Source: Arthrobacter globiformis
Lineage (GTDB): Bacteria; Actinomycetota; Actinomycetes; Actinomycetales; Micrococcaceae
Assembly: GCF_003261175.1 (NCBI RefSeq)
Contig: NZ_QLNP01000067.1
Location: 152,078-216,077, forward strand
Direction of reading: 5' to 3'
Length of the DNA: 64,000 bases
The notes below the pieces were generated by a model. That model searched no databases and was not told the DNA's origin. It saw only the letters and a list, made by a program, of their open reading frames with translations. Positions 18,464 to 37,310 of this stretch are shown in pieces (within the stretch, counting starts at the first letter, position 1; each line of letters opens with the position of its first letter). The position numbers were made by a program, and so were the translations under genes.

Positions 18464-18469
18464 CTGCGG
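18464..18469 (+). repeat. target-site duplication CTGCGG, right copy
   Basis: Direct duplication matching 16316-16321, immediately outside the right end of the IS21-family element. Confidence 0.85.
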
Positions 18470-18720
18470 ATGCGCCCGTCAGATTTCGGCGTCATTCTGA
18501 TAGGAGAGCCATTGCTGGGCTTTTGATTCCGGACGAAGCGACGGAGGAGTATCGAACGAACTCTTGGTTCGTGAACGGCACGCTGCCCCCAGTTGTACGA
18601 AGGACCTGCCCAGCGATGATCGGGATCAGAATGACAAACAGCGAAGTTGCTTTTGCTCATTCATGTGTAGGTGCAGGCACCGCGGCATGACGTTAAAGGC
18701 CGCAGTTCCGTTGGCGAGGA

Positions 18721-19725: not shown

Positions 19726-20207
19726 CAGCCAAACACCCGGCGAAAGGCCAGAGGCTCGGGCAGGCTGGAGACCTCGCTGTTGATGATCCGCATGGCAAGT
19801 TGGTCGGCGAGGGCCTCGGCTGTGAATTCGGCGTCGTCTGTGTAGCTTCTGCGGCCGAGAGCCCGGAGGACCTCGACGCCGAGGTCCGGAAGGAATGCGG
19901 TGACCAAGTCTTCGCTCGGTTCCGCGAGGTCATGCTGAAGGATCATGTGGCTGAACTCGTGCAGGATGATCTGTTGCCGGTGCCAGCTGGATTTCACCGT
20001 TGCATGCAGGACTATGTCGCGGTCGGCACAGATGAGCCAGACGCCGCACAATTCGGATCCGCACATGCCAGGGAGTTCGTCAACGATGATGGGCCGGCCG
20101 CGTTGCACTTCCAGTTTGTTTTGGATGTACAGAAGAGTCGCGTCGTCGGGCAGACCGAAGCCGTGCTCCGCTCGCCGGGCTATCTTTCGGGCGTCACGAT
20201 AGTTCAT
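19725..20207 (-). CDS. ImmA/IrrE-type metallopeptidase
   Basis: The product is 160 residues from the ATG at 20207; a Met 10 codons upstream is possible. The zinc-peptidase motif HEFSHMILQHD is present, with QQIIL before it, so unlike the 12.7-kb paralogue this protein should be catalytic. The C-terminal half has the usual ADQLAMRII helix. ImmA cleaves repressor-type regulators in mobile elements; here no XRE gene is adjacent and the partner is the membrane protein that follows. It overlaps the upstream DUF2236 gene by 14 bp. Confidence 0.82.
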   Translation of the reverse strand: MNYRDARKIARRAEHGFGLPDDATLLYIQNKLEVQRGRPIIVDELPGMCGSELCGVWLICADRDIVLHATVKSSWHRQQIILHEFSHMILQHDLAEPSEDLVTAFLPDLGVEVLRALGRRSYTDDAEFTAEALADQLAMRIINSEVSSLPEPLAFRRVFG

Positions 20208-21087
20208 TGCTTCGGGCCGCCGGGGAGTGGGGAACATTGACGGGACCGATTTGGTCCAGAGAATACCCGTTCGGGTAGAGGGACGAACCGGCTTTGCCGG
20301 GCGTGAAATGGGGCTGCTCCTTTAGCGGCCGACGACGGCATATCGCGTTGCGAATTATCAGTCCAGTTTTGAGGGCGGCTCGGGAAGTCCGGCTCGAGTT
20401 GGGGAGGCCGAGCGCCGCGGTGAGGCGGTCGTCGTCGAGCATTGTGCTGATGATGTGTTTGGCCAAAGGGCGCAGCGGAGCGGGCAGCCGACTTTGGAAG
20501 ACCTGGACCGTGGCGTCCATGAGATGCTGGCCTTCGGGGGATGGCGCGACATGCGCGGCCTCGTAGGCGTCAAAGAAGGCTTCGGCTTCAGCGTAGGTAG
20601 CAGGCATGCCGTCGATGTTCATCCGGGAGCCTAGTTCGGTGAAGAAGCGTGCGGCGGCCGCGAGCTCCGCAGCTGTGGGCTCGCGCCAGGAGTGCTTCTG
20701 GGTCCAGCGGATCGGAACCAAGAGCAGCGTGAGGAGTACGTAGAGGAAATCGTCTTTGTTGCCTGGGACATTGCGGTGAACCCTGTTGAGTAGGGCAACC
20801 ATGTCGCGGCCGCGGTCGCTGTCCAGTCCGCTGGCGATGAGCTCGTAGATGACGATGGCGGTGTCGTAGGAGCGCTTCATGGGGCGCTGCTGGATCTCAG
20901 CGTTGCTGTGCAGTGTTGACGCGATGGTCGGGATGGCGAAATTGCGGTAGTAGGAGAGGAAGAAGCCGAGTTCCATGTCCGCGGCGAGATCGAAGAGAGC
21001 CATGTTGCGGAAGGTGGCTTCCCAGTCCTGCGGCTGGGCATCTTCCTGACGGCGTAGGCTCGCGGCGGGCGACTCATGAAGATTCAT
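20194..21087 (-). CDS. DUF2236 / MpaB-type oxygenase family protein
   Basis: The 297-residue product has the DUF2236 hallmarks: an N-terminal helix region with LGFFLSYYRNFAIPTIAS, and RVHRNVPGNKDDFLYVLLTLLLVP near residues 105-128. This family includes heme-containing latex-clearing oxygenases and MpaB-like proteins. GGAAAGGGG precedes the ATG at 21087. The reaction is unknown. It heads a tight group with the ImmA-like peptidase and the MAB_1171c-type membrane protein, an association also seen in other actinobacteria. Confidence 0.8.
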   Translation of the reverse strand: MNLHESPAASLRRQEDAQPQDWEATFRNMALFDLAADMELGFFLSYYRNFAIPTIASTLHSNAEIQQRPMKRSYDTAIVIYELIASGLDSDRGRDMVALLNRVHRNVPGNKDDFLYVLLTLLLVPIRWTQKHSWREPTAAELAAAARFFTELGSRMNIDGMPATYAEAEAFFDAYEAAHVAPSPEGQHLMDATVQVFQSRLPAPLRPLAKHIISTMLDDDRLTAALGLPNSSRTSRAALKTGLIIRNAICRRRPLKEQPHFTPGKAGSSLYPNGYSLDQIGPVNVPHSPAARSNELS

Positions 21088-22616: not shown

Positions 22617-24122
22617 CTAACTGGCGTAGGGGTCGTTGATGCCGATGTATTGGGTGGTGGTGTATTCGGCGATGCCTTCGGTGCCGCCTTCGCGGCCGAG
22701 GCCGGATTGTTTGACGCCGCCGAAGGGTGCTGCGGCGTTGGAGATGATGCCGGCGTTGAGGCCGACCATGCCGAATTCGATTTGTTCGGCCACGCGCAGG
22801 AGGCGGTTGAAGTCGCGGCTGTAGAGGTAGGAGGCGAGGCCGTATTCGGTGGCGTTGGCCTGCCGGATGGCGTCTTCCTCGGTGCTGAACGTGGTGACCG
22901 GGGCGACGGGGCCGAAGATTTCCTGGCGGAGGATCTCGGCGTCGTTGGGGACGTCGCCCAGCACGGTGGGCTGGTAGAAGTAGCCAGGTCCGTCCACGGG
23001 GGAGCCGCCGGTGATGGCGGTGGCTCCGGCGCCGACGGCGGCACTCACCAGGGCGTGCACGTCATCCCGGGCGCCGGCATCGATGAGGGGGCCGACCTGG
23101 GTTTCGGGTTCGGTTCCGCGGCCGGTGGCCAGGGCGCCCATGGCGGCGGCGAACTTGGCTGTGAACTCGGCGGCGACGGTTTCGTGGACGAGGAAGCGGT
23201 TGGCGGCGGTGCAGGCTTCGCCCATGTTCCGCATCTTGGCGGCCATGGCCCCTTCGACCGCCTTGTCCAGGTCGGCGTCTTCGAACACGATGAAGGGTGC
23301 GTTGCCGCCGAGTTCCATGGAGGTGCGCAGGACGTTCTGGGCGGCGTCGGCCATGAGGCGCTTGCCCACGGGGGTGGAGCCGGTGAACGAGACTTTCCGG
23401 AGCCGCGGGTCGGCCAGCAGCGGCCCGGAGATCCCCGAAGCGCTGGAGGAAGAGACGACGTTCAGGACGCCGGCGGGCAGGCCGGCGTCGAGCATGGTCT
23501 GCGCGAAGTACTGGGCGGTGAGCGGGGTGAGTTTGGCGGGTTTGAGGACCATGGTGCAGCCAGCCGCCACAGCTGGTGCGACCTTGCGGGTGGCCATGGC
23601 GAGCGGGAAGTTCCAGGGGGTGATGAGCAGGCAGGGGCCGACGGGCTTGTGCTGGACGAGGATCTTGTTCTTGCCCTCGGGGGTGGTGAGGTAGCGGCCG
23701 TAGTCGCGGACGGTTTCTTCGGAGAACCAGCGCAGGAATTCGGCCCCGTAGGTGACTTCGCCGCGGGCCTCGGCGAGCGGCTTGCCCATCTCCAGGGTCA
23801 TCAGCAGCGCGAAGTCCTCGGCGCGTTCGGTGACCAGGTCAAAGGCGCGGCGCAGAATCTCGGCGCGTTCCCTGGGTGCGGTCCGGGCCCAGGAGGCCTG
23901 AACCGCATCGGCCGCGTCGAGCGCGGCGACGGCGTCCTCGCTGGTGGCCGAGGCGAGGGTGGCGAGTACCTCCCCGGTGGCGGGATCGTGCACGTCAAAC
24001 GTGCCGCCGTCGGACGCATCCCGCCACTGGCCGTTGATGAGCAGGCCGGTCGGCACCGATGCCAGCAGGGATGACTCACGCTCGGGGGTAATGGCAGGGG
24101 AAAGGGCAAGGGTCAGAGACAT
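22617..24122 (-). CDS. gabD: NAD(P)-dependent succinate-semialdehyde dehydrogenase
   Basis: The 501-residue protein belongs to the aldehyde dehydrogenase superfamily and has GabD-type features: NFPLAMATRKVAPAVAAGCT (171-190), FTGSTPVGKRL (246-256), catalytic Glu270 in MELGGNAPF and catalytic Cys304 in GEACTAANRF. It oxidises succinic semialdehyde to succinate. GGAGC lies 5 nt before the ATG. It faces the same way as the BCCT gene upstream but a long hairpin separates them. In this island it would consume succinic semialdehyde released by heterocycle ring cleavage; GABA catabolism is the generic alternative. Confidence 0.9.
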   Translation of the reverse strand: MSLTLALSPAITPERESSLLASVPTGLLINGQWRDASDGGTFDVHDPATGEVLATLASATSEDAVAALDAADAVQASWARTAPRERAEILRRAFDLVTERAEDFALLMTLEMGKPLAEARGEVTYGAEFLRWFSEETVRDYGRYLTTPEGKNKILVQHKPVGPCLLITPWNFPLAMATRKVAPAVAAGCTMVLKPAKLTPLTAQYFAQTMLDAGLPAGVLNVVSSSSASGISGPLLADPRLRKVSFTGSTPVGKRLMADAAQNVLRTSMELGGNAPFIVFEDADLDKAVEGAMAAKMRNMGEACTAANRFLVHETVAAEFTAKFAAAMGALATGRGTEPETQVGPLIDAGARDDVHALVSAAVGAGATAITGGSPVDGPGYFYQPTVLGDVPNDAEILRQEIFGPVAPVTTFSTEEDAIRQANATEYGLASYLYSRDFNRLLRVAEQIEFGMVGLNAGIISNAAAPFGGVKQSGLGREGGTEGIAEYTTTQYIGINDPYAS

Positions 24123-24150
24123 GGTGCTCCATTGGGAATGGTCGTGAACA

Positions 24151-24191
24151 GGTGGTTGAGCCTGCCGAATGACTTCGGAGGCTCAACCACC
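24151..24191 (-). terminator. long hairpin between the BCCT gene and gabD
   Basis: GGTGGTTGAGCCT and AGGCTCAACCACC are perfect 13-bp arms, and the loop contains a second stem (CCGAA/TTCGG). It lies 18 bp past the BCCT stop codon and 28 bp before the gabD start, so it should end or attenuate the BCCT transcript. Confidence 0.8.
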
Positions 24192-24208
24192 CGCTGGGGA
24201 ATGAGGTG

Positions 24209-25888
24209 TTATGGCTGGGGTGTGAGGATCCGGTTGAGGTCGCCTTGGGTGACGGACTTAGTCCGGTCGAACCGGGGGTCGTTCCTGAGTTCCTTGACCA
24301 GGCCCACGCCTAGGAGGGCGACGATCACGGTGAACGGCAGGGCCGAGAGCATGGCGGCCTGCTGGAGGGCGCCCAGACCGCCGACGATGAGGAGCACCAC
24401 GGCGCACAGGCCGGTCAAGAGCCCCCAGATAGTCAGGACAGGCTTGGTGGGGTTTAGTGTTCCGCGGGAGGACATCATGCTCAGGACGAAGGTGTTCGCG
24501 TCCGCGCCGGAGACGAAGTACATCACTACCAGGATGATGGCGACGATGGAGGTGAGGCCGGACAGGGGAAGTTCGGCGAGCGTGGCGAAGAAGGCGGAGT
24601 TGACGTCGTCGAGGGCGGCGGCGCCGATCTTCCCGCCGTTTTCCATGTCGAACTTGATGGCCGTGCCGCCAAAGATGGTGAACCAGACGAAGAAGACGAC
24701 GCTGGGGACGATCATGACGCCTGCGACGAATTCGCGGATGGTTCGTCCCTTGGAGATCTTGGCGAGGAATACGCCGACGAAGGCGCCCCAGCTCAGCCAC
24801 CAGGCCATCATGAAGTAAGTCCACCACTGCATCCACTGGACATCCTCGGGTGTGCCTGGGGTGAGCAGGCTGACGGCGAAGAAGTCGCTGAGGTATGTGC
24901 CGAGGGAGCGGAAGAAGAGGTTGGAGATGAAGTTGGTGGGTCCGGTGAATAGCACATAGAGTCCGAGCCCGACGGACAGAACCATGGTGCCCTGGCTGAG
25001 GTACTTGACGCCGCGGTTGACGCCGGACAGGGCTGACAGTGTGAAGATCACGGTGATGACGGCGATGATGAGGATCTGTCCCAGCAGGCTGGAGGGAATG
25101 CCGAATACACGGTTTACTCCTTCGCCGATCTGCGAGGCGCCGAGTCCCAGGGACGTGGTGGTTCCGAACAGCGTGGCGATGATGGCGAAGACGTCGATCA
25201 TCTTGCCGAACCAGCCATCGACCAGCTTGCCGAAAATCGGGCGGAGCATGGGGGACACCAGGCCGGGGTTGTTGCGGCAGTGTGTGGAGTAAGCGATTGC
25301 GAGGCCGAAGACCCCGAAGACTGCCCAGGCGTGCGGGCCCCAGTCGAAGTAGGAGAACTGCATGGCGCGGATCGCGGCGTCCATGGTGCCGGCTTGGGCG
25401 AGGCCGTGCGGCGGGGAAGCGAAGTGGGAGATGGGTTCGGCGACGCCGTAGCTGATGAGTCCGATTCCCATGACTGCTGAGAGGATCATTGCCAGCCATG
25501 CCCAGGTGCTGAACTCGGGCTTGGCGTCCTGGGCGCCGAGGCGGAGGCGTCCGAACCGGCTGACGGCGACGTAGATGAGCAGTCCGATGCAGCCGAGGGT
25601 AACCACCAGGTAGCTCCAGCCGACGCTCTGAGCTACCCAGTCCATGGCTGCGGTCATCACGCCATTGAGGCTTGTGGAGGAGAGGGATGCCCAGGCCGTG
25701 AAGGCGCCGATGAGTCCGACTGACGTCCAAAAGACGGCCCCGGGCCTGTTTCGAAGGCGGTCCGCCTCGGCCAGGGATGTTTCGGTTATTGGTCGGGTGC
25801 CGTTGGGGGAGGCAAGGATGGTTGGGCTTTCGTCCGTGCCTGGGCTTTTCGTTTCCATCAGGTCCTCGGCATTTTGTGTGTGGGTCAT
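24209..25888 (-). CDS. BCCT-family betaine/quaternary-amine transporter
   Basis: The start ATG at 25888 has GGAG 6 nt upstream; a TTG six codons earlier lacks one. The 559-residue protein has about twelve membrane segments and BCCT family motifs, including YFDWGPHAWAVFG, MAWWLSWGAFVGVFLAKIS, GRTIREFVAGV and the FFVWFTIFGGTA segment. BCCT carriers take up substrates with an N+(CH3)n group such as glycine betaine, choline, carnitine or ectoine. Placement between a flavin-reductase gene and gabD suggests it imports the N-methylated substrate of this island; osmoprotection is the alternative. Confidence 0.92.
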   Translation of the reverse strand: MTHTQNAEDLMETKSPGTDESPTILASPNGTRPITETSLAEADRLRNRPGAVFWTSVGLIGAFTAWASLSSTSLNGVMTAAMDWVAQSVGWSYLVVTLGCIGLLIYVAVSRFGRLRLGAQDAKPEFSTWAWLAMILSAVMGIGLISYGVAEPISHFASPPHGLAQAGTMDAAIRAMQFSYFDWGPHAWAVFGVFGLAIAYSTHCRNNPGLVSPMLRPIFGKLVDGWFGKMIDVFAIIATLFGTTTSLGLGASQIGEGVNRVFGIPSSLLGQILIIAVITVIFTLSALSGVNRGVKYLSQGTMVLSVGLGLYVLFTGPTNFISNLFFRSLGTYLSDFFAVSLLTPGTPEDVQWMQWWTYFMMAWWLSWGAFVGVFLAKISKGRTIREFVAGVMIVPSVVFFVWFTIFGGTAIKFDMENGGKIGAAALDDVNSAFFATLAELPLSGLTSIVAIILVVMYFVSGADANTFVLSMMSSRGTLNPTKPVLTIWGLLTGLCAVVLLIVGGLGALQQAAMLSALPFTVIVALLGVGLVKELRNDPRFDRTKSVTQGDLNRILTPQP

Positions 25889-26006
25889 GGCGTACTCCAG
25901 ATGCAAGGTTGCATGGGGTTGAAGTTGGTGATTCCCGGGCGGGGGGGACCCGGGTGTCTGGCCCGCCGGCTGCTGGCCGGGTCAGGACGATGATGGCACC
26001 TGAGGG

Positions 26007-26957
26007 TCAGAGTTCCTCGAGCTGCGCACCGTCGAAGAAGAGGCCTGCCTTGTAGATCATGGGGTCCACGTCGGCGACTTCGGCGTGCCGGACCCGGCCG
26101 ACGAAGATCGTGTGGGTTTTGGCCTGGAAGCGCTCCTTTATTTCCGCCTCCAGCGATGCTGCAGACCCGTCGATGAGCGGTACGCCGTTGGGGCCGGCAT
26201 GCCATTCCAGATCGGCGAACTTGTCCTGGGTCTTCGAAGCGAAGGTCTTGACCGTCCCAAGCTGGTTGTTGCTGAGGATGTTGATTCCAAAGTGCGAGGA
26301 CTGGAACAGCGCGGGGTACGTCGACGACGTCTTCTGGACGCAGACGAGAACCAGCGGCGGGTCCAGGGAAATGGACGCGTAGGAGTTGGCGGCAAGACCC
26401 TTGGGGGTGCCCTCCTCGTCAACGGTGGTCACGACAGTGACGCCGGTGATGAACTGCCGGTTGAATCCCTTCATGATGTCCTGCGGAAGGTTGCCGGACA
26501 GGTTGTCAACGATGACATCCGGGGTTTCATCCTCGAAGGCGGAGCCGAGGGACGGGATGCCCACGTGGGCGAGAAGTTCGACGGCGTCCCAGGTCACCTG
26601 TTCGTAGGCGATGCGCCCGTCCCGGAGAGTCAGCGCATTGGAGCCGCGGGTTTCCACGACGCGGCCTGTGGGCGGGACACCCCGAAGGGGGTGGGTGAAG
26701 GTTCCAGTCGACTTCCAGAAGATGGCCATGTCATCACCGCTGGCGATGACTTTCTCGATGCGGGTGGTCAGGTCGGGAAAAGCGGCCCGGACATCGAGGA
26801 TTTCCTGCTGCAGTTCCTTCAGTCCGCACACCTTCTTCGTGCCGGTGCTCTCACGCTGGTAGTCGGCGGTCACGATCGCGTCGAACGCGGTGACATCACC
26901 CTCGTCCCAAGCTGCGGTCCAAGCGGCGGTTACGGCGTCGTTGAGTGTCTCTTGCAT
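26007..26957 (-). CDS. fusion: SnoaL-like domain + flavin reductase (FMN-binding split barrel)
   Basis: The product is 316 residues from the ATG at 26957. Residues 1-140 are a SnoaL/ester-cyclase-like domain (VTAAWTAAWDEGDVTAFDAIV, GRIAYEQVTWDAVELLAHVG). Residues about 165-316 are an HpaC-type flavin reductase domain (MKGFNRQFITGVTVVTT, GLAANSYASISLDPPLVLVCVQ, HFGINILS). The reductase half supplies reduced flavin to a two-component monooxygenase, and the matching luciferase-like oxygenase ends the divergent operon. The SnoaL half may act on the product. The gene diverges from the GntR regulator with 118 bp between, so shared control is likely. Confidence 0.87.
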   Translation of the reverse strand: MQETLNDAVTAAWTAAWDEGDVTAFDAIVTADYQRESTGTKKVCGLKELQQEILDVRAAFPDLTTRIEKVIASGDDMAIFWKSTGTFTHPLRGVPPTGRVVETRGSNALTLRDGRIAYEQVTWDAVELLAHVGIPSLGSAFEDETPDVIVDNLSGNLPQDIMKGFNRQFITGVTVVTTVDEEGTPKGLAANSYASISLDPPLVLVCVQKTSSTYPALFQSSHFGINILSNNQLGTVKTFASKTQDKFADLEWHAGPNGVPLIDGSAASLEAEIKERFQAKTHTIFVGRVRHAEVADVDPMIYKAGLFFDGAQLEEL

Positions 26958-27039
26958 GCCACAACGGTAAGGCCGGGTGTGATCTACGTCAATAGCTACA
27001 CCCGAAAACGCCACTAGACCCCTAAAAGACAGCAGTCTC

Positions 27040-27069
27040 TTGACGGCCGTGTTGTATGCAACGTAGGTT
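27040..27069 (+). promoter_or_regulatory. leaderless gntR promoter with palindromic operator
   Basis: TTGACG (27040-27045) and TAGGTT (27064-27069) are 18 bp apart, and the gntR ATG at 27076 is 6 nt beyond, so the message would be leaderless. GTTG-TATG-CAAC at 27051-27062 lies in the spacer; with the GntR gene adjacent it is a natural autoregulatory operator that could also control the divergent reductase gene. Confidence 0.6.
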
Positions 27070-27075
27070 TGATGC

Positions 27076-27783
27076 ATGCAAGAAGTCATTCAGTTGCGAA
27101 AGGGCGTTCCGGCGTCCGCGAACCAGGCCAGCATTTTGGACAAGCTCCGGAAGCTGGTCCTCAGCGGCGAGTATCCTCCGGGAGCGCCTCTGCCGGAGCT
27201 CTTCCTTGCCGACCAGTTCGAGGTGAGCCGGACACCGGTGCGTGAAGCCTTGAAGCAGCTGGAAAACGAGGGCCTGGTGGAGATCAGGCCCAAGGTAGGG
27301 ACCTTCGTCCGAATCCCGACCCGGCGCGAGATCGTTGAGCTCTTCCAGCTCAAGGAGAGCCTCGAAGGTCTGGCCGCCAGCCTCCTCGCCCGGCGCGGTA
27401 CGGTGCCGGAGCTTGACATCCTCAAGCGCAACATCGAGGAATCAGAGCGTGCTGAGCGACGTGCTGACGCCGCGACATACGCCGAACTCGTCCACGAGTT
27501 CCACTGGACGATTGTCAAGGGTTCGGATAACTCCAAGCTCGCCGAGCACTACGGGCGCCTCATGAACCAGCTTGCCTACCACCGGATTGTCCTCGAAACC
27601 GTTGAGCGTCCGGCCCGGATGCGCGCTTCCATCCGCGAACACCAGTCTGTGGTCGATGCCCTCATGGAAAAAGACCCTGTTGGCGCCGAGCTCGCCATGC
27701 GGGGCCACGTCAGCGCCTCCAGCTTGGCCGCGGCACGGGGCGCAGACACCGGCAACGCCGCCGGCGAAAAAACACAAGCTTAG
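27076..27783 (+). CDS. GntR-family (FadR subfamily) regulator
   Basis: This 235-residue regulator has a winged HTH in residues 17-80 (GAPLPELFLADQFEVSRTPVREALKQL, then EGLVEIRPKVGTFVRIPT) and a FadR/FCD-type helical ligand domain with an AELVHEFHW segment and a later His (IREHQSVVDAL), which in this family coordinate a metal used for carboxylate ligands. It is divergent from the SnoaL-reductase gene and 53 bp upstream of the catabolic operon. It most likely represses both units until the substrate or a ring-opened acid appears. Confidence 0.92.
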   Translation: MQEVIQLRKGVPASANQASILDKLRKLVLSGEYPPGAPLPELFLADQFEVSRTPVREALKQLENEGLVEIRPKVGTFVRIPTRREIVELFQLKESLEGLAASLLARRGTVPELDILKRNIEESERAERRADAATYAELVHEFHWTIVKGSDNSKLAEHYGRLMNQLAYHRIVLETVERPARMRASIREHQSVVDALMEKDPVGAELAMRGHVSASSLAAARGADTGNAAGEKTQA

Positions 27784-27800
27784 TCACCGAAGGGAACCCC

Positions 27801-27833
27801 ATGACTGCCACTAGCTCCCCAAAGAAGGGTTGA
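27801..27833 (+). CDS. possible 10-codon leader ORF before the AA_synth operon
   Basis: ATG at 27801 with GAAGGG 8 nt upstream encodes a 10-residue peptide (MTATSSPKKG) whose stop lies 3 bp before the next gene's GTG and whose end includes that gene's ribosome-binding site (AAGAAGGG). It may serve translational coupling only. Confidence 0.3.
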   Translation: MTATSSPKKG

Positions 27834-27836
27834 ACC

Positions 27837-28505
27837 GTGTCCGAGACAACAATCATCCCCGTGGCCGAAGGAACCAACCTCGCGTCGGCGATTGAAGAAC
27901 TCGCCCGGGAAGTCGGGGTCCGCAAGGTCACCGTGCTGACGGAGGAAATCCTCCGTGACGGGTCGGGAGCCCTGGCCACCAGCGTGACCAGGGCTGCCGC
28001 CGCCGCCGTCATCCGCAACCCATGGAGCGGCTCGGCTGTCTCCACTGACCTGGCACCCGAAACCGAACGCATAGCTCCCGTTCTCGCCAAAGTTCTCACC
28101 GACCGCCTCACAGCAGCCCTCGGAGGCGCCGGCGAGATCGAGGCGTTCGGCAAATCCGCCGTTGTCGGGCTGAAGGGCGAAGTTGAACACGCCGCAGCGC
28201 TCATCCACACGCCCTACTTCGGAAACCTGGTCCGTGAGTTCCTCGAAGGCACATCAATCCTCTCCTTCTCGGACGAACGGGCAGAGCCCGGAACCACGAT
28301 CGCCGTGCCGATGTGGCACAAGGAAGCCGCCTCCACACGAAGCCACTACCAGACCCTGACGCTGAACCTGAGCGATGCACCCCACCCCGACGAGATAGTT
28401 GTCATCGCCGCCGCCTCAACCGGTTCGCGCCCGCATCCCCGCATCGGTGACCGAACCACCGACCGACCCGTAACCGCTGAAATCCTGGAGGGAATCCTGC
28501 CGTGA
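27837..28505 (+). CDS. AA_synth (PF06684) family protein, long paralogue
   Basis: The 222-residue product starts at GTG 27837 behind AAGAAGGG. It belongs to the PF06684 'amino acid synthesis' family, recognised from the order VRKVTVLTEEIL, AAAAVIRNPWSG, AFGKSAVVGLKGEVEHAAALIHTP and DAPHPDEIVVIAAA. Its stop overlaps the start of a shorter paralogue (28502). The family name reflects genomic association; no reaction is established that I can rely on. An N-terminal extension of about 25 residues distinguishes it from its partner, so the two may form a heteromer. Confidence 0.82.
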   Translation: MSETTIIPVAEGTNLASAIEELAREVGVRKVTVLTEEILRDGSGALATSVTRAAAAAVIRNPWSGSAVSTDLAPETERIAPVLAKVLTDRLTAALGGAGEIEAFGKSAVVGLKGEVEHAAALIHTPYFGNLVREFLEGTSILSFSDERAEPGTTIAVPMWHKEAASTRSHYQTLTLNLSDAPHPDEIVVIAAASTGSRPHPRIGDRTTDRPVTAEILEGILP

Positions 28506-29053
28506 AAATCCGCAAAATCGTTACCCTGTCCGAAGAAATCCTGACCGAGGGCGGTCGCCCCGTAACCCCCGGAGCCCGGGTCGCGATCGCCGTTGCAGTC
28601 GTGGAAAACCCGTGGGCCGGCCAGGGCTTTGTAGAGGACCTGACCGAAGGCATCGATGCCATCGCCTCGGACCTCGGCGCGCTCCTCGCCCCCAAAGTCA
28701 TCGAGGTGCTCGGCGCTCCCGTAGAGGCTTACGGCAAGGCCGCCATCGTCGGCATCGAAGGCGAGATCGAGCACGGCTCGGCGCTGATCCACACGCTGAA
28801 GTTCGGTGACCACTACCGCAAGGCCGCTTCCGCCACCACGCTGCTGCCCGCCGTCGAAAAGCGCGCACCCGCCGGCACGGTCTTCGACATCCCCATGAAG
28901 CACATCACCGACGCAACCATCCGCTCGCACCACCAAAGCGTGGAGGTCCGGGTGGCCGACGCACCCCACCCCGGCGAGATCCTCATCGCCCTGGCCGCGT
29001 CCGCGCAGGGACGGCCGCAGGAGCGCCTGGCGCCCCTGTCCACGGAGCAATGA
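28502..29053 (+). CDS. AA_synth (PF06684) family protein, short paralogue
   Basis: The 183-residue product shares the same motif order as the preceding gene (IRKIVTLSEEIL, VAVVENPWAGQGF, AYGKAAIVGIEGEIEHGSALIHTL, DAPHPGEILIALAA). ATG overlaps the upstream stop (ATGA-type overlap) and its own stop overlaps the alpha/beta-hydrolase start, giving tight coupling. PF06684 proteins have repeatedly been found next to flavin monooxygenases in catabolic operons. A hydrolytic or amide-forming role is only a guess. Confidence 0.82.
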   Translation: MKIRKIVTLSEEILTEGGRPVTPGARVAIAVAVVENPWAGQGFVEDLTEGIDAIASDLGALLAPKVIEVLGAPVEAYGKAAIVGIEGEIEHGSALIHTLKFGDHYRKAASATTLLPAVEKRAPAGTVFDIPMKHITDATIRSHHQSVEVRVADAPHPGEILIALAASAQGRPQERLAPLSTEQ

Positions 29054-29790
29054 CCCAAGTGTCTGAAACGCCCATTGCCCTTCTGCACGGCGTCGGCCTT
29101 GACGCCAGCATGTGGGCCCCGGTTAGGGATGCCCTCAAGCGTGACTCAGTGGCCATCGACCTGCCGGGCCACGGACGGCAGCCAGCCCTGGCGGAACCAA
29201 CCACCCTGGCCGAACTTGCCGAAGACGTGCTGGGCCGCCTCCCGGAGCGAAGCCACCTGGTGGGCTTTTCGCTCGGAGCACTGATCGCGCAGTACATCGC
29301 CAGGTTCCACCCCGACCGGATCGCGACTATGACCTGCGTGAACTCCGTCTGCCAGCGCACCGAGGACGAATCAAAGGCCGTCCTCAAGAGGCTGGAGGCG
29401 GCAGAGTCGGATTTCCCGGCCACCGTCGAAGCCTCCATCGACCGCTGGTACACCGGCACGTCCGTGCCTGAAAGCGTTGTGGAAGCAACGCGCCGCACCC
29501 TGGAAGCGAACGACGTCGAATCCTTTGTGCACGCCTACCGCGTGTTCGCGGTCGGTGACGCGGTCATCGGTCCGGAGCTTGGCAGCGTCCAGGTGCCCAC
29601 CCTCGCTGTCACCGGTGAGCTGGACCCCGGATCAACGCCGGAGATGACCCGGCGCCTGGCAGCAGCGATCCCGGGTGCCAAGAGCCTCGTGGTTCCTGGC
29701 GCACGGCACATGCTGCCGGTCCAGAACGCTGACGTTTTGGCCGGGGCAATTAATGACTTCATCCAAGAATCGGAAGGAGAACGGGCATGA
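29050..29790 (+). CDS. alpha/beta hydrolase, candidate ring-opened-amide hydrolase
   Basis: This 246-residue protein has the alpha/beta-hydrolase layout: oxyanion-hole LLHGVGLDASMW (11-22), nucleophile elbow GFSLG with Ser74, acid TGELDPGS and base GARHML. It resembles enol-lactone hydrolases and the hydrolases that cleave (N-acyl)aminomethylene-succinates in pyridine-type catabolism (TgnD of trigonelline, the equivalent step of vitamin B6 degradation). Its position between the AA_synth pair and an aldehyde dehydrogenase fits that step, releasing amine, formate, CO2 and succinic semialdehyde. Substrate remains inferred. Confidence 0.88.
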   Translation: MTQVSETPIALLHGVGLDASMWAPVRDALKRDSVAIDLPGHGRQPALAEPTTLAELAEDVLGRLPERSHLVGFSLGALIAQYIARFHPDRIATMTCVNSVCQRTEDESKAVLKRLEAAESDFPATVEASIDRWYTGTSVPESVVEATRRTLEANDVESFVHAYRVFAVGDAVIGPELGSVQVPTLAVTGELDPGSTPEMTRRLAAAIPGAKSLVVPGARHMLPVQNADVLAGAINDFIQESEGERA

Positions 29791-31268
29791 CGCTCCGACT
29801 CGACCACTTCATCGGGGGTACCTGGTCTGCTCCCGCCGGCGGGGAATACTTCCCCAGTACCAACCCGGCAACGCTCGAGCTGCTGTATGAAGCGGCACGG
29901 GGAACCGAAGAGGACGTCCGCCGCGCCGTGGCAGCAGCCAAGGAAGCGTTCGAATCCCCGCTGTGGCGCGACCTCACGGCCACCAAGCGAGGCCACCTCC
30001 TCCGACGCCTCGGCGACCTGATCGGCGAGCACGCAGACGAGCTCGCGGAGCTGGAAACCCTGGACAACGGCAAGCTGCTGCGCGAGATGCGCGGCCAGCT
30101 CGCCTCTCTGCCCGAGTACCTCTACTACTACGCCGGGCTGGCGGACAAGGTCCAGGGCAGCCAGATCCCCACCAACTCGATCACCATGCTGAACTACACC
30201 CAGCGCGAACCCCTCGGCGTCGTCGGGGCCATCACCCCCTGGAACTCGCCCCTGACACTGACCACGTCCAAGCTGGCCCCGGCCCTGGCCGCCGGCAACA
30301 CCGTGGTCATCAAGCCCAGCGAGTACACCTCGCGGACCATCCTGCGGGTCGCCGAGCTGGCATCCCAAGCAGGGTTCCCCGACGGCGTCGTGAACGTCGT
30401 CACCGGCTTCGGGCAGGAAGCCGGCGCCGCGCTGGTAAGCCACCGCGACCTGGCAAAGATCTCCTTCACCGGATCTACGGCGACCGGTGCCCGCATTGCC
30501 GCGGAAACGGCGTCGCGCTTTATCGGTTCAACCCTTGAGCTCGGCGGCAAGAGCCCCAACATCGTGTTCGAGGACGCCGACGTGTCCAACGCGGCGATGG
30601 GCGTCATCGCCGGGATCTTCGCAGCAGCGGGCCAGACCTGCATCGCCGGCAGCCGCGTCTTCGCCCACCGCAGCGTCTACGACGAACTCGTCGAACGCGT
30701 CGCCGAACGCGCGGCGTCTATCATCATCGGTGACCCGCGGCTGGCCACCACCGAACTCGGACCCCTCGCCTTCGGCGCCCAGCTGGACAAAGTGAGCTCC
30801 TACGTGGACATCGGCGTCAGCGAGGGCGCGACAGTCCGGACCGGAGGCAAGCGCCCAGACATCGAACTCCCGGGTTACTTCTTCGCACCCACCGTCCTGA
30901 CCGACGTCGACAACTCCATGCGCGTCGTACGGGAAGAGATTTTTGGACCGGTCGCCGCAATCATGCCCTTCGACTCCGAGGACGAGGTTGTCGGCCTCGC
31001 CAACGACACCGAGTACGGGCTCGCTGCCGGCATATGGACGCAGAACCTGGCCCGGGCCCACAGGATGGCCCGCCGGCTGGAAGCAGGCACGGTGTGGGTC
31101 AACACTTACCGCGCCATGTCCCCGATGTCGCCGCGGCAGGGGTTCAAGAACTCCGGTGTTGGCATCGAGCACGGACTCGAGTCCATGCACGACTACACCC
31201 GGCTCAAGAGCGTCTGGATCAACACCGACGAAGGTCCCGTCTCCGACCCGTTCGTCCTGCGCAGCTAA
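29787..31268 (+). CDS. NAD-dependent aldehyde dehydrogenase
   Basis: A 493-residue aldehyde dehydrogenase with cofactor motifs PWNSPLTLTTSKLAPALAAG (151-170) and FTGSTATGARI (227-237), general base Glu251 in LELGGKSPNIV and nucleophile Cys285 in GQTCIAGSR. It overlaps the hydrolase by 4 bp. In the trigonelline-type model it would be the TgnC equivalent, oxidising the ring-opened semialdehyde to the dicarboxylate that the hydrolase cleaves. It is clearly distinct from gabD at 22.6-24.1 kb. Confidence 0.92.
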   Translation: MTLRLDHFIGGTWSAPAGGEYFPSTNPATLELLYEAARGTEEDVRRAVAAAKEAFESPLWRDLTATKRGHLLRRLGDLIGEHADELAELETLDNGKLLREMRGQLASLPEYLYYYAGLADKVQGSQIPTNSITMLNYTQREPLGVVGAITPWNSPLTLTTSKLAPALAAGNTVVIKPSEYTSRTILRVAELASQAGFPDGVVNVVTGFGQEAGAALVSHRDLAKISFTGSTATGARIAAETASRFIGSTLELGGKSPNIVFEDADVSNAAMGVIAGIFAAAGQTCIAGSRVFAHRSVYDELVERVAERAASIIIGDPRLATTELGPLAFGAQLDKVSSYVDIGVSEGATVRTGGKRPDIELPGYFFAPTVLTDVDNSMRVVREEIFGPVAAIMPFDSEDEVVGLANDTEYGLAAGIWTQNLARAHRMARRLEAGTVWVNTYRAMSPMSPRQGFKNSGVGIEHGLESMHDYTRLKSVWINTDEGPVSDPFVLRS

Positions 31269-31279
31269 AGGAACCCGAA

Positions 31280-31480
31280 ATGCCTCTCATCGAAGTGTCC
31301 ATCGCCCGGGGCCGGACCCCCGAGCAGCTCCGCTCGCTCATCAACGAGCTGCACCTGGCCGCAGAAAAAGCTGTCGGGGCGGTCCCTGAAAACACCACCG
31401 TCATCGTCCGCGAAATCGAACACGAGCACTGGTCCCGCGGCAACCAAACCATCGCCGAACGCAACGCGGCTGCCACCTAG
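31280..31480 (+). CDS. 4-oxalocrotonate tautomerase family protein
   Basis: The 66-residue product keeps the catalytic N-terminal Pro after Met (MPLIEVSIARG) and is read from the ATG at 31280, 11 bp after the aldehyde dehydrogenase, with AAAGGA upstream. Arg10 and the later VIVREIEHEHW segment fit small 4-OT-like tautomerases. It would interconvert enol and keto or dienol forms of an acyclic intermediate in this operon. It has no counterpart in the described trigonelline route. Confidence 0.82.
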   Translation: MPLIEVSIARGRTPEQLRSLINELHLAAEKAVGAVPENTTVIVREIEHEHWSRGNQTIAERNAAAT

Positions 31481-31540
31481 GCAGGCTGCAGCCACCAATT
31501 TACGCGCAGGCGAAAATCGCCGCAGAACGAAGGAGTAACA

Positions 31541-32608
31541 ATGCGCTTTTCCCTCTTCGTCCACATGGAACGATGGGACGATTCCGTCTCCTACCAGGAA
31601 TGCTTCGAGAACCTGACGGAACTCAGCCTCATCGCGGAGGCCGGCGGCTTCAGTACCGTCTGGATCGGCGAGCACCACTCCATGGAATACACCATCTCAC
31701 CGAGCCCCATGCCCCAGCTCGCCTACCTGGCGGCGCGGACCTCGAAAATCCGTCTGGGCGCCGGGACCATCATCGCGCCGTTCTGGAACCCGCTCCGGGT
31801 AGCGGGCGAGTGCGCGCTCCTGGACGTCATCAGCAACGGCCGGATGGAAGTGGGCCTGGCCCGCGGCGCCTACCAGTTCGAATTTGACCGGATGCTGGGC
31901 GGCATGTCAGCGGTCGACGGCGGCAAGCACCTCCGCGAGCTCGTCCCGGCAGTCCGCGCCCTCTGGGAAGGCGACTACGCTCACGACGGCGAGGTCTGGC
32001 AGTTCCCCACCTCCACCAGCATCCCCAAGCCCGTCCAAAAGCCGACCCCGCCCATGTGGATCGCAGCCCGCGACATCTCCTCCCACGAGTTCGCCGTCGC
32101 TAACGGGTGCAACGTCATGGTCACGCCCCTGATGAAGGGCGACGAGGAAGTCGAAGACCTGGCACGCAAGTTCGACACCGCCGTGGAGAACAACCCCGGC
32201 GTCCCCCGCCCCGACCTCATGGTCCTCCGGCACACCCACGTCCACTCCGCCGACGAGCCCGAAGGCTGGCGCCGCCCCGCCGAAGGCATCAACAAGTTCT
32301 ACCGCACCTTCGACGCCTGGTTCGGCAACAAGACCACCCCCGTCAACGGCTTCCTCGAGCCCAGCCCCGAAGAAAAGTTCGCCGAGCGTCCGGAATTCAG
32401 TCCCGAATCCCTCCACAAGACCGCCATGATCGGGACGCCCGACGAAGTCATCGAACGCCTCCGTCGCTACGAGGCACTTGGCGTCACTGAATTCAGCGTC
32501 TGGTCTGACAACAGCCTCACCCACGAAGAAAAGAAGCGCTCACTCGAGCTCTTCATCGAACATGTGGTACCGGCCTTCCAGGAACAACCCGCCGCCGTTT
32601 CCATCTGA
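31541..32608 (+). CDS. luciferase-like (LLM class) flavin-dependent monooxygenase
   Basis: The 355-residue TIM-barrel protein has the LLM pattern: MRFSLFVHME, AEAGGFSTVWIGEHH (33-47), LGAGTIIAPFWNPLRVAGE, GRMEVGLARG and the C-terminal MIGTPDEVIERLRRYEALGVTEF. AAGGAGTAACA precedes the ATG. Enzymes of this class need reduced FMN from a reductase, here probably the SnoaL-reductase fusion. Heterocycle-opening relatives include TgnA (trigonelline) and pyridine monooxygenase. It closes the operon; nothing downstream is on this strand until 40.4 kb. Confidence 0.9.
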   Translation: MRFSLFVHMERWDDSVSYQECFENLTELSLIAEAGGFSTVWIGEHHSMEYTISPSPMPQLAYLAARTSKIRLGAGTIIAPFWNPLRVAGECALLDVISNGRMEVGLARGAYQFEFDRMLGGMSAVDGGKHLRELVPAVRALWEGDYAHDGEVWQFPTSTSIPKPVQKPTPPMWIAARDISSHEFAVANGCNVMVTPLMKGDEEVEDLARKFDTAVENNPGVPRPDLMVLRHTHVHSADEPEGWRRPAEGINKFYRTFDAWFGNKTTPVNGFLEPSPEEKFAERPEFSPESLHKTAMIGTPDEVIERLRRYEALGVTEFSVWSDNSLTHEEKKRSLELFIEHVVPAFQEQPAAVSI

Positions 32609-33419: not shown

Positions 33420-34664
33420 CTATTCCACCTCGGCGTAAGCCGATTCAGCATGTAGTGTCAGATCCAGGCCGCGGTGTTCGGTTTCTTCATCGACCCGGAT
33501 GTTCATAACTTTGTTTAAAGTCCAGGCGATCGCGTACGTGGCGATGAACGCATAAAGACACGTTGCTGCAATAGCGATCAGTTCTCTCCACAGAATGCTC
33601 CAGTCCCCTCCGAAAACGAGACCTGTCACGCCTGCGGGTGCTGACTTTGCTCCAATCAGCACTACGCACAGTGTCCCTACGATGCCGCCGATGCCGTGGA
33701 CTGCGAAGGCGTCGAGGGTGTCATCGACTCCCCACTTCTGCTTCCATGTAATGGCCCAGCAGACAACTGCCCCGGATGCGGCACCAACAGCGAGTGCGCC
33801 GAGAGGATTTACGGCATCGGCGGATGGAGTGATGCCGACCAAGCCGGCAATGGCGCCGGTTGCGAGTCCGAGAGCAGACGGGCGTCCATCCCGCACCCGC
33901 TCGATTGCGAGGTATCCGATTATGCCGGCGCAGCCTGCCAGGAGTGTGGTCATCACGACGTATTGGGACAAGAAGTTGGCTCCTGCAGCCGACCCGCCAT
34001 TGAATCCGAACCACCCAAACCACAGGATTCCTGCTCCCAGGATGGCGAAGGGAAGGTTATGAGGCTTCGCTTGGGGGGCCTTGCTTTTTCCTAGGACGAG
34101 GGCAAGTGCGAGGGCGCCTACACCTGCCGTCATGTGCACCGCAGTGCCGCCAGCGAAGTCGTGGAGGTGAACGACGTTGCGCAGCCACCCGCCGACGTAA
34201 CCGGTCTCTTCGTCCGTGTAGGTGAACACCCAGTGGGCGATGGGAAAGTAGACGACCGTCAGCCAAATGGCGCTGAAAATTATCCACGCGCCGAATCTCA
34301 TCCGCCCTGCGGCTCCGCTGGCAACGATGGCTACGGTTATCGCGGCAAACAGGACGAAGAAGGCGGCCCAGTATATCGACTGTGGACCGCCGCTTCCGTC
34401 GTCACTCTCAAAGCCGATCATCCCGAAAAATTCGAATGGGTTGCCGACAATGCCCAGGCCGGCAACGGAGTTTCCCGAAACCATGCCGTATCCGTACAGA
34501 ACGTAGAGGATGGCAGTGACAGCGAGGGTGCTCAGCACCATCATGAACATGTTGAGAATGTTGTTTTTCCCGAGCAGCCCGCCGTAATAGAAGGCAAGCC
34601 CGGGGAACATGAGCGCTACAAGGGCGAAGGCGGCCAGAAGCCACGCGAGGTCTGCCTGTGGCAT
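33420..34664 (-). CDS. amt: ammonium transporter Amt
   Basis: A 414-residue Amt/Mep/Rh channel with eleven predicted membrane helices, the family motif DFAGGTAVHMTAG (first pore Asp and conserved His region) and AVHGIGGIVGTLCV carrying the second pore His. It ends with a short charged C-tail (HAESAYAEVE) usual for P-II interaction. It sits behind the first N-demethylase set with 77 bp between and is followed by glnK. Location in an amine-catabolic operon suggests recapture of ammonium, or possibly uptake of methylammonium. Confidence 0.95.
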   Translation of the reverse strand: MPQADLAWLLAAFALVALMFPGLAFYYGGLLGKNNILNMFMMVLSTLAVTAILYVLYGYGMVSGNSVAGLGIVGNPFEFFGMIGFESDDGSGGPQSIYWAAFFVLFAAITVAIVASGAAGRMRFGAWIIFSAIWLTVVYFPIAHWVFTYTDEETGYVGGWLRNVVHLHDFAGGTAVHMTAGVGALALALVLGKSKAPQAKPHNLPFAILGAGILWFGWFGFNGGSAAGANFLSQYVVMTTLLAGCAGIIGYLAIERVRDGRPSALGLATGAIAGLVGITPSADAVNPLGALAVGAASGAVVCWAITWKQKWGVDDTLDAFAVHGIGGIVGTLCVVLIGAKSAPAGVTGLVFGGDWSILWRELIAIAATCLYAFIATYAIAWTLNKVMNIRVDEETEHRGLDLTLHAESAYAEVE

Positions 34665-34741: not shown

Positions 34742-35731
34742 TCAGTTGAGCAACCAGGCGGCAGCGGCGGCCCGGTAGTCGCTTACTCCCTTGTAGGCTG
34801 CAATGTCTTCCGGAGTGGACATCAGTATTTGGGCCAGCTGGTCCCGCCATGCGGGAATGGCCTTGATCTCCTCAAGTGAAGCCATGTAGGTGCGGATGCT
34901 GAACGTCACCGCTCCTGACATCGGAAGACGAATGAAGTGCTCCAATTCGATGCGGAGCTGCAAGTTCCCGAAGTTGCGTTCCGCGACGAGCCGCGGGATG
35001 TCCTGGCCCCATTCCGGCAGCTCTTCGAGACTGATGTCCAGCTTGCGGGAGCCTGAGGCGGAGAGCGTCCAGTTGACTCTGCGGAACACCTGGTCTGCCG
35101 GTAGCCGCATGAGGAACTGTTCCGCCCTCGAGGTGATGCCCTCGCGGGTGAGTCTTGGCACCGGTTGGTGGATTTCGGTGAAACTCATGCCGGCGTCGAA
35201 GGTGACCGACCAGGCGGCAGCAAAGGTGACAAGACCTGCGTCGAAGTGCATTTGCCCGCCGCGCTCCTTGACCAGGAGCAGATCGTCCGGAATCTCCCTT
35301 CCCAGGAAGGTCATCGGGTCGTGCTGCAGCGACGATTCATCGCCTACGACGAAGGTTTGGTCCGTGCCGAGGAGGTGGTTTTGCCACCGGACGAGGTCGC
35401 CGTCCTCGTGCAGTTGCATGTGCTCCGGATGGGTGATGGCCAGGTCTCTGAGGTAGTACATCAGCAGGTCCCAGCAGGCCGGCATCATGCCGGGCAGGAT
35501 TTGGACCCTGTCGGGGTCGGCGGCAAGGATGCGGCGGCGTTCCTTCATGATGTGCGCGTAGTCATCTCCGCCAAGGTCGACGATGTTGGCACCCCATTCG
35601 CCTCCAGCGGTCTTTTTGCGCATGCGCGCAGGCTCGACGTTGACGCTGTACTGGAAGTCCTGCTGGTCTTCGGCGAAGGGCCACGGCAAAGTCGTGGTGT
35701 ATTTCGTGCCTTCGGAAATGTTGGTGCTCAT
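34742..35731 (-). CDS. heme-dependent oxidative N-demethylase, DUF3445 subunit (set 1)
   Basis: The 329-residue protein belongs to the DUF3445 family, the heme-binding oxygenase subunit of dimethylamine monooxygenase-type N-demethylases. Family stretches are PWPFAEDQQDFQYSVNVEP near the N-terminus, QILPGMMPACWDLLMYYL, DAGLVTFAAAWSVTFDAGMSF and RAEQFLMRLPADQVFRRVNWT. The ATG overlaps the reductase stop as ATGA. It is about the same length as the second copy (37354-38355) but clearly diverged in sequence, so the two sets may have different substrates. It oxidises an N-methyl group, releasing formaldehyde. Confidence 0.88.
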   Translation of the reverse strand: MSTNISEGTKYTTTLPWPFAEDQQDFQYSVNVEPARMRKKTAGGEWGANIVDLGGDDYAHIMKERRRILAADPDRVQILPGMMPACWDLLMYYLRDLAITHPEHMQLHEDGDLVRWQNHLLGTDQTFVVGDESSLQHDPMTFLGREIPDDLLLVKERGGQMHFDAGLVTFAAAWSVTFDAGMSFTEIHQPVPRLTREGITSRAEQFLMRLPADQVFRRVNWTLSASGSRKLDISLEELPEWGQDIPRLVAERNFGNLQLRIELEHFIRLPMSGAVTFSIRTYMASLEEIKAIPAWRDQLAQILMSTPEDIAAYKGVSDYRAAAAAWLLN

Positions 35732-36726: not shown

Positions 36727-37310
36727 GGCAGTTCCCGTGCCAGGGCATCTGAGGCGAGGTAGCTTCCCCGCACGCCGGACAGGTGGGCATGGATTTCGAC
36801 GGTCCTGTCGCAGGCCGGACAGGTCACCACATCACCCACGCCACCGACGACACTGCTCGTCGCGCGGCAGTGTGCGCAGTAGATGGGAAGGTCGACAGCG
36901 TTGGTGACAAGACTGAGGACCTCCTTTTCCAGCGCTCCAGCGGCGCGGGCAAGGGCGACGGTTTGCAGCACATCGAATTGCCGGCCCACAATCATGATGC
37001 GTACGCCGTTCAGGCTGGAAGCCAGGGCCTGGCGAAGCTGGCGTCGGGTTTCTGCGTTGATTTCGCTGAAGGTTAACCATTGAACCTGCCCTAGTTCTGC
37101 AGCCTCGGCAATCCACGCTCTGGCAAGGGCTGCATTCTCGCCGGAGCCAAAAGAAACGATGAGAAATGAATTGCCGCTCCGGTCGACAGCTGTGTCCGGG
37201 CGGCCCGTGCGGGTGTTCAGGTTCTGCACAGCTGTTTCAGCTTGCCGGAGGGCCGGGGATGGGGCGCTGGCAATCCTGGTCCGAATGTCCACCTTCATGA
37301 TGGTTTTCAT
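36723..37310 (-). CDS. dmmA: DmmA-like subunit of N-demethylase (set 1)
   Basis: The start ATG at 37310 has GGAAGAG 6 nt upstream; a long upstream frame overlaps the previous gene and was discarded. The 195-residue product has a Rossmann-like first half (SFLIVSFGSGENAALARAWI, VRIMIVGRQFDVLQTVALARAAG) and a C-terminal zinc ribbon (YCAHCRATSS...VTCPACDRTVEIHAHLSG), as in dimethylamine monooxygenase subunit DmmA family proteins. It is the first gene of set 1 and overlaps the reductase by 4 bp. Confidence 0.85.
   Translation of the reverse strand: MKTIMKVDIRTRIASAPSPALRQAETAVQNLNTRTGRPDTAVDRSGNSFLIVSFGSGENAALARAWIAEAAELGQVQWLTFSEINAETRRQLRQALASSLNGVRIMIVGRQFDVLQTVALARAAGALEKEVLSLVTNAVDLPIYCAHCRATSSVVGGVGDVVTCPACDRTVEIHAHLSGVRGSYLASDALARELP

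Follow-up and report, generated by a model that had tools for sequence, protein, structure and literature searches.

A probable actinobacterial variant of the trigonelline degradation gene set in Arthrobacter globiformis

The window analyzed here, a stretch of 64,000 nucleotides from Arthrobacter globiformis, contains between positions 22617 and 32608 two divergent operons whose products resemble the enzymes that degrade trigonelline (N-methylnicotinate), an abundant plant betaine that is also present in coffee. Every gene named in an initial annotation of this DNA was found in its place. The locus is situated on contig C35, and the genome (4.88 Mb) encodes a single luciferase-like monooxygenase (LLM) of this kind; the second-best LLM match in the same genome has 31% identity and covers only part of the protein. 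The minus-strand operon encodes a flavin reductase, a BCCT carrier and a succinate-semialdehyde dehydrogenase (SSADH), the plus-strand operon a GntR regulator, two DUF1185 proteins (a and b), an alpha/beta hydrolase, an aldehyde dehydrogenase (ALDH), a tautomerase and the LLM. On the plus strand, 4-base overlaps connect DUF1185a with DUF1185b, DUF1185b with the hydrolase and the hydrolase with the ALDH, and no gap exceeds 60 bases.

On the minus strand, the SSADH-type aldehyde dehydrogenase (22617-24122), a candidate for the TgnE role of the Acinetobacter tgn pathway, matches Aldedh with 550.8 bits; its top NCBIfam model, TIGR01780 (SSADH), scored 558 bits, below the cut-off of 646. The BCCT-family carrier (24209-25888; PF02028, 563.8 bits), the proposed substrate importer, has BetP and the choline and trimethylamine carriers as its nearest solved structures; its ATG start near 25888 was picked by eye instead of a TTG at 25906. 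The flavin reductase (26007-26957), the candidate TgnA counterpart, carries an N-terminal SnoaL domain (residues 10-130) ahead of the Flavin_Reduct domain (residues 167-306, 136 bits); the ATG at 26957 was preferred as its start to an alternative at 27089 that would overlap the GntR gene. The plus-strand operon begins with the GntR/FCD-family regulator (27076-27783; GntR 78.3 bits, FCD 84.9 bits), followed by the TgnF-like DUF1185/AA_synth protein a (27837-28505; PF06684, 194 bits) and, in tandem with it, the likewise TgnF-like protein b (28502-29053). The predicted-structure model of DUF1185b matches solved DUF1185 structures, and DUF1185 proteins form hexamers and have a fold like that of chorismate mutase (PMC2954203). 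The alpha/beta hydrolase (29050-29790; Abhydrolase_6, 78.5 bits), the candidate for the TgnD role, has one solved relative at 1e-20, the 3-oxoadipate enol-lactonase 2xua. Further downstream are the ALDH (29787-31268; Aldedh, 572 bits), the putative TgnC counterpart, a 4-oxalocrotonate-tautomerase-like protein of 66 residues (31280-31480; PF01361, 48.6 bits) and the LLM (31541-32608; PF00296, 195 bits), the putative ring-opening oxygenase in the role of TgnB.

The reference for comparison was plasmid NZ_CP094644 of Acinetobacter sp. PK01, the record of which names tgnA, tgnB and tgnC and which stands in for the sequences of strain ADP1. One strand of its cluster encodes a DUF1330 protein and a GntR regulator and the opposite strand, in this order, a DUF1185 protein, a hydrolase, tgnA, tgnB, tgnC, an NCS1 carrier, a hypothetical protein, SSADH and a CMD protein. 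It is also flanked by an ammonium transporter gene and by sarcosine-oxidase-like genes that are read as N-methylglutamate dehydrogenase. Identity to the PK01 proteins is 51% over 346 residues between LLM and TgnB and 46% over 493 residues between ALDH and TgnC (both full length), 44% over 465 residues for SSADH, 43% over 145 residues between the reductase domain and TgnA, 48% and 42% for DUF1185a and DUF1185b, 29% over 233 residues (E 9e-33) for the hydrolase, whose PK01 gene is not itself named tgnD, and 26% for GntR. Counterparts of TgnA, TgnB, TgnC, a TgnD-type hydrolase with weak identity, TgnE and two copies of TgnF occur at the locus; judged by these alignments, all six catabolic tgn roles have homologues there.

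The role-by-role match to a route that opens an N-methylpyridine ring, proposed in the initial annotation, is borne out, and it is stronger than claimed there, as the TgnF family is represented and genes for methylamine use are found at a distance of 11 kb. The two gene sets have in common the LLM, the flavin reductase, the TgnC-type ALDH, the alpha/beta hydrolase, SSADH, DUF1185 and GntR. They differ in the number of DUF1185 proteins (two in the window, one in PK01), in the tautomerase of the window and in the architecture of the reductase, which in the window has SnoaL at the N-terminus whereas in PK01 TgnA the reductase domain is N-terminal with another half behind it. No CMD or DUF1330 gene was seen among the called genes of the window locus. 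The carrier is BCCT instead of NCS1 and, as had been noted, the gene order is different; by themselves these differences mark a variant and are no evidence of a new substrate. The tautomerase and the SnoaL fusion also depart from tgn. Of the extra genes from which possible novelty had been argued, the DUF1185 pair is counted as part of the known pathway; TgnF belongs to the DUF1185 family. The regulator class had been listed as a further difference, a remark that cannot stand in this form; since a GntR gene also stands in the annotated Acinetobacter cluster, the regulator provides no argument for a new substrate. The tandem arrangement of the DUF1185 genes, the tautomerase, the SnoaL domain on the reductase and the methylamine genes at 33.4-46 kb are additions to what had been recognized earlier.

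The LLM was placed by several approaches. In NCBIfam it scored far below the cut-off of every LLM-type model among the best 25 of 28, with 32.8 bits against a cut-off of 518 for the alkanesulfonate monooxygenase SsuD and 30.6 bits against 280 for a nitrilotriacetate-type model. The top PDB sequence match was the luciferase-like monooxygenase RslO1 of Streptomyces (E 1e-29); solved alkanesulfonate enzymes matched at E 1.5e-4 only, and no solved alkane enzyme was named among the 27 PDB matches. A grouping with alkanesulfonate or alkane enzymes, named in the initial annotation as an outcome that would contradict its reading, was looked for and did not appear (33 bits versus 518 for SsuD, 51% identity to an annotated TgnB). 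A tree was computed by a quick method from 60 of 99 rows, leaving out 37 of the 49 Pseudomonas rows by choice and the actinobacterial L072 and L073 because an index range was set too wide; the chosen outgroup was clade B, two sequences from the Agrobacterium fabrum and Mesorhizobium ciceri loci discussed below. The window LLM forms one clade of 51 rows with those of Actinobacteria and Pseudomonas (SH-aLRT 98), beside which stands the TgnB clade (6 rows, SH-aLRT 97); L046 (G500), a long branch, falls outside both. The Pseudomonas group (12 rows, SH-aLRT 99) is nested among actinobacterial rows, with a support of 92 for the forks that place it, which suggests transfer of the gene from Actinobacteria to Pseudomonas. 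In the clade-wise conserved positions, 27 are common to the window clade and TgnB as opposed to clade B, compared with 7 and 8 for the other pairings, numbers to which ancestral states may contribute. Ten conserved positions differ across all three clades and eight are particular to the window clade, clade B being represented by its two sequences.

A scan of genome contigs for the LLM yielded at least 80 named loci, 31 actinobacterial loci that bear the operon and were selected by more than 65% identity to DUF1185b, and 49 from Pseudomonas. The reductase, DUF1185a, hydrolase, ALDH and LLM were all present in 31 of the 31 listed actinobacterial loci, 30 of them had GntR above threshold and 27 the tautomerase. 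The gene set is not a chance neighborhood. The SnoaL and reductase halves appeared as two separate adjacent matches in 21 of 23 listed loci outside the Micrococcaceae and in one of eight inside, as read from matches and not from gene borders. The set is rare in the order and the phylum: at E <= 1e-60, 10 of 297 genomes searched in the order and 3 of 396 in the phylum have the LLM, and both figures count the genome of the window itself as well as G005, whose copy is truncated at the 5' end. The nearest named LLM among the matches listed, with 94% identity, belongs to Pseudarthrobacter sp. NamE5. The truncated copy (L029, G005:C17, approximately 11308-12234), from a genome of the same genus, is 91% identical from residue 38 on; the other genes of the cluster were not found in the 20 kb around it, and it is the relic of a lost cluster.

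The loci of Pseudomonas bear most directly on the substrate. In 44 of the 49 listed loci an NCS1 carrier with at least 50% identity to that of PK01 adjoins the LLM, and a small reductase is present in 44 as well; a DUF1185 gene occurs in the fetched flank of one. When eight Pseudomonas genomes were searched as a whole, all eight contained a DUF1185 gene, G685 having two, and in all eight the sole TgnB homologue at E <= 1e-30 was the window-type LLM. The distance between LLM and DUF1185 was 8 to 44 kb in seven of them and 1.4 Mb in G682. The main DUF1185 locus was read for five of the eight; DUF1185, hydrolase, ALDH, a small reductase and GntR occur together in each of the five, a CMD gene (77-81%) in four and SSADH (70%) in one, and none contains an LLM inside the gene set. 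Around the second DUF1185 gene of G685 no tgn-like set was observed. The Pseudomonas DUF1185 proteins are 56-58% identical to that of PK01 and 45-48% to those of the window, the ALDHs 51-53% to TgnC and 53-54% to the window's, and the hydrolases 35-38% to both. As far as homology can tell, the window-type LLM serves where several other genes are of the Acinetobacter tgn type. Because it stands in for TgnB in these genomes, it can be argued to act on the same substrate, and this replacement is the strongest argument that the LLM may share the substrate of TgnB.

The exchange of the carrier narrows the substrate from another side. BCCT is encoded in 19 and an NCS1-like carrier in 14 of the 31 listed actinobacterial loci; 16 have BCCT only, 11 NCS1 only, three both and one neither (Fisher p 9e-5). 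The NCS1 calls in Actinobacteria come from tblastn at 25-28% identity, with Pfam confirmation for that of L018 alone. The carrier states require at least 10 and at least 11 changes on the LLM tree, and of six independent pairs on starred branches an average of 5.4 showed BCCT and NCS1 changing in opposite directions and none a change in the same direction (sign test, median p 0.03, range 0.03-0.25). Within the operon, BCCT and NCS1 carriers take each other's place. As NCS1 carriers bring in N-heterocycles and BCCT carriers bring in betaines, a substrate carried by both would be a heterocyclic betaine.

Next to the locus lies a group of methylamine-use genes. On the minus strand an ammonium transporter Amt (33420-34664; PF00909, 387.5 bits, TIGR00836 above cut-off) is followed by two sets of dimethylamine-monooxygenase-like subunits (34742-39829), with HODM_asu-like, DmmA-like N/Fer2 and DmmA-like C domains each occurring twice. 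Both tandem sets look complete, and the second may act on another methylated amine. On the plus strand are a protein of the type III glutamine-synthetase family (40404-41777; TIGR03105, 584.9 bits, cut-off 469.6), a family that we take to be gamma-glutamylmethylamide synthetase (GmaS) and whose start here may be the ATG at 40227 or that at 40404, the proposed N-methylglutamate synthase subunits MgsABC (41837-44832; GATase_6/7, GXGXG and Glu_synthase in three consecutive genes), for which no NCBIfam model matched at E 1e-40, and a FAD amine oxidoreductase (44829-45983; DAO, 153.6 bits), a proposed N-methylglutamate oxidase or dehydrogenase. The last scored 231 bits with the N-methyl-tryptophan oxidase model (cut-off 257) and remained below the cut-offs of both matching models; a single FAD oxidase follows mgsC where the N-methylglutamate pathway has MgdABCD. 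At least one methylamine-use gene was above threshold in the fetched flank of 12 of the 80 listed loci, in L050 by the FAD oxidase alone, and such genes are likewise present beside the G176 and Azospirillum B510 clusters.

The proximity was evaluated with mgsC in 38 of the listed loci, hand-chosen for spread, with positions for the 21 that had a match and distances read by hand. In the window mgsC is 10.9 kb from the LLM. Among the 21 mgsC-bearing genomes, each with just one LLM of the family at E <= 1e-100, the distance was at most 18 kb in nine and 28 and 71 kb in two, and mgsC was on another contig in 10. By chance 0.13 cases within 20 kb are expected, and the maximum in a million simulations was four, kinship of the genomes being ignored. 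Together, the LLM replacement in Pseudomonas, the BCCT/NCS1 exchange and the nearby methylamine genes point to an N-methylated heterocyclic betaine as the likely substrate.

In the ADP1 pathway, which Perchat is said to have described in PNAS in 2018, a ring-opened hydroxylactone is reportedly converted to N-methylformamidomethylene-succinate and this to methylamine, formate, CO2 and succinic semialdehyde, from which succinate is formed. Applied to the window, the BCCT carrier would import trigonelline, the SnoaL-fused reductase would supply FMNH2 to the LLM, and the LLM, by its homology and that of the reductase to TgnB and TgnA, would open the N-methylpyridinium ring without prior hydroxylation. 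By analogy to Acinetobacter, the ALDH would oxidize the hydroxylactone, the hydrolase would split N-methylformamidomethylene-succinate into the products just named, and SSADH, aided by the DUF1185 proteins of the TgnF type, would yield succinate. The tautomerase probably accelerates an E/Z or keto-enol conversion of the product of ring opening, which is a guess, as would be any role ascribed to the SnoaL domain. The released methylamine probably enters the N-methylglutamate route through gmaS-mgsABC and the FAD oxidase, which are observed approximately 8 to 13 kb downstream. Ring opening by TgnA/TgnB is the first step of trigonelline degradation according to one paper (PMC8269262), and another states that TgnF, a homologue of the DUF1185 type, stimulates the TgnE-dependent oxidation of succinic semialdehyde in ADP1 (PMC7913881).

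It is considered highly probable that the locus is an actinobacterial variant of the known trigonelline pathway, related to the Acinetobacter form and distinct from it. Several observations weigh against this assignment. The identity of the hydrolase to its PK01 counterpart is low, at 29%, and that of the LLM to TgnB is just 51%. SSADH was above threshold in the flanks of 4 of the 31 listed relatives, a fifth copy being cut by the edge of the locus. No mgsC was found at E <= 1e-80 in 17 of the 38 LLM genomes; among the 21 genomes with the gene, it is on a different contig from the LLM in 10. The presence of two dimethylamine-oxygenase sets suggests that the neighboring cluster also serves other amines. 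In Pseudomonas, ALDH and hydrolase are equidistant from the two references and only DUF1185, CMD, SSADH and NCS1 lean clearly to Acinetobacter. For HcdD, another DUF1185 protein, a TgnF-like stimulation was sought and not found (PMC7913881). A literature search by title and abstract, mostly of open papers, found no actinobacterial tgn cluster among the matches listed, which is weak evidence.

The substrate might be unsubstituted pyridine, degraded with release of ammonia and formate. A study of 2020 by Casaite is said to report that the pyr cluster of Arthrobacter sp. 68b opens pyridine with the same enzyme classes, which thus reportedly occur within the same bacterial family; one of the clusters found here is on an Arthrobacter plasmid, and an NCS1-like carrier is encoded in 14 of the 31 listed loci, with BCCT missing from 11 of these. 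However, methylamine-assimilation genes that recur near the LLM make little sense for a methyl-free ring, the betaine-type carrier in 19 of 31 loci is ill-suited to a neutral compound, and Pseudomonas pairs the window-type LLM with DUF1185, CMD, SSADH and NCS1 resembling those of Acinetobacter tgn. Degradation of pyridine is therefore considered very improbable. The natural substrate could also be another N-methylated ring (N-methylisonicotinate, N-methylpyridinium, homarine or N-methylnicotinamide) processed by tgn chemistry. BCCT and the methylamine genes demand no more than an N-methylated zwitterionic or cationic ring, and the ten positions that differ among the LLM clades, eight of them particular to the window clade, and the extra tautomerase and SnoaL parts would fit such a substrate. 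The 27 conserved positions common with TgnB as opposed to clade B and the replacement of TgnB in Pseudomonas speak for trigonelline and leave other rings improbable. Homarine is further disfavored by the steric hindrance argued for TgnA/TgnB and by a growth of Ruegeria poorer than on trigonelline (PMC8269262).

The probability that the LLM belongs among the alkanesulfonate, alkane or F420-dependent enzymes and lies beside betaine genes by chance is practically negligible. The Pfam family (Bac_luciferase) alone cannot discriminate, but the model scores, the PDB matches and the full-length identity of 51% to the annotated TgnB rule out this candidate, and the operon is retained in all 31 selected loci. 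A bolder version of the favored assignment is regarded as rather unlikely. It supposes that Actinobacteria evolved a second solution separately, in which SnoaL, the tautomerase and a paired, possibly heteromeric DUF1185 complex process the unstable ring-opened product enzymatically, that the oxygenase acts mainly on another N-methylpyridinium betaine, and that the LLM spread from Actinobacteria to Pseudomonas and there displaced the native TgnB of a pathway whose remainder is proteobacterial.

If the trigonelline assignment is true, degradation of this betaine extends to Actinobacteria, among them Arthrobacter, Streptomyces, Mycolicibacterium and Nocardioides, and via the transferred oxygenase also to Pseudomonas. 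Similarity to TgnB alone would under-call such sets, at an identity of approximately 50%. The tandem DUF1185 pair would be a way into the question, as yet unsolved, of what TgnF does, and the repeated exchange of NCS1 and BCCT yields a directly testable prediction of the substrate.

The region between the two operons contains operator-like sites to which the GntR protein may bind. One, TTGCATGCCA (26952-26961), overlies the start codon of the reductase, and the other, the palindromic TTGTATGCAA (27052-27061), lies 14 bp before the GntR start codon. Across the 64 kb the pattern TKGYATRCMA has just these two matches (26952 and 27052), and both fall between the divergent operons. By chance 0.41 are expected, and two or more occurred in 9 of 100 shuffles, for which reason it is the placement of the sites that is telling and not their count. 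Of 32 regions preceding the operon (the window included), 28 contain a match of at least 7/8, compared with 2.4% of 6,400 random regions. The GntR gene of L034 is located elsewhere, yet the interval between reductase and DUF1185a there holds two exact palindromes. The conservation of these paired TTGYATRCAA-like sites is observed; binding of GntR to them is what we infer from it.

Related clusters occur in other bacteria. Those of rhizobia, Leisingera, Pantoea and Burkholderia contain, like the window, GntR, DUF1185, hydrolase, reductase, LLM and ALDH, with SSADH in S. meliloti; their LLM is of the TgnB type (48-52% identity to that of the window), and ABC or NCS1 importers are nearby. The cluster of S. 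meliloti ml46 pSymA (L021, 10835-22667), which includes the SSADH, is approximately 8 kb from noeA/noeB with insertion sequence (IS) genes in between, and we take it to be a candidate for the old trigonelline-catabolism region of pSym. The pyr cluster of Arthrobacter sp. 68b, likened here by description, presumably has a two-component flavin monooxygenase, ALDH, hydrolase and SSADH as in the window; its substrate lacks an N-methyl group, unlike the one proposed for the window.

The clade B clusters (Agrobacterium fabrum L041, Mesorhizobium ciceri L044) likewise contain LLM, reductase, ALDH, hydrolase and DUF1185. They differ in an LLM that is 43-45% identical to that of the window, a different helix-turn-helix regulator and glycine-betaine or amino-acid ABC importers nearby, the glycine-betaine importer being the one near the genes of A. 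fabrum. On a plasmid of Shinella sp. WSC3-e (L022) a tgn-type cluster and a clade B-like cluster lie side by side (7677-12844 and 16747-21035), the second with DUF1185, a helix-turn-helix regulator, flavin reductase and an ALDH, cut at the end of the stretch. This arrangement suggests a different substrate for clade B.

Plasmid pLDW-10 of Arthrobacter crystallopoietes (L045, 1-12903) encodes a SnoaL-fused flavin reductase 55% identical to that of the window. Around it lie genes for nicotinate phosphoribosyltransferase, ribokinase, two tautomerases, an ALDH and a different LLM, and the group may encode a further pathway of the pyridine type. Tandem DUF1185 genes lie beside molybdopterin-hydroxylase and UPF0280 genes on plasmids of Sulfitobacter and Sagittula (L038, L039), the latter also with a gene annotated as 6-hydroxynicotinate reductase; DUF1185 seems to be tied more widely to the breakdown of N-heterocycles.

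In the window, an IS21-type istA/istB pair is present to the left of the locus (16395-18400) and a weak IstB fragment, below the Pfam cut-off, to the right (51293-51817). Such elements on both sides would fit a catabolic region that is mobile. At its right end (60798-63910) the window contains a histidine ammonia-lyase-like gene of the aromatic amino acid lyase family and a urocanase gene.

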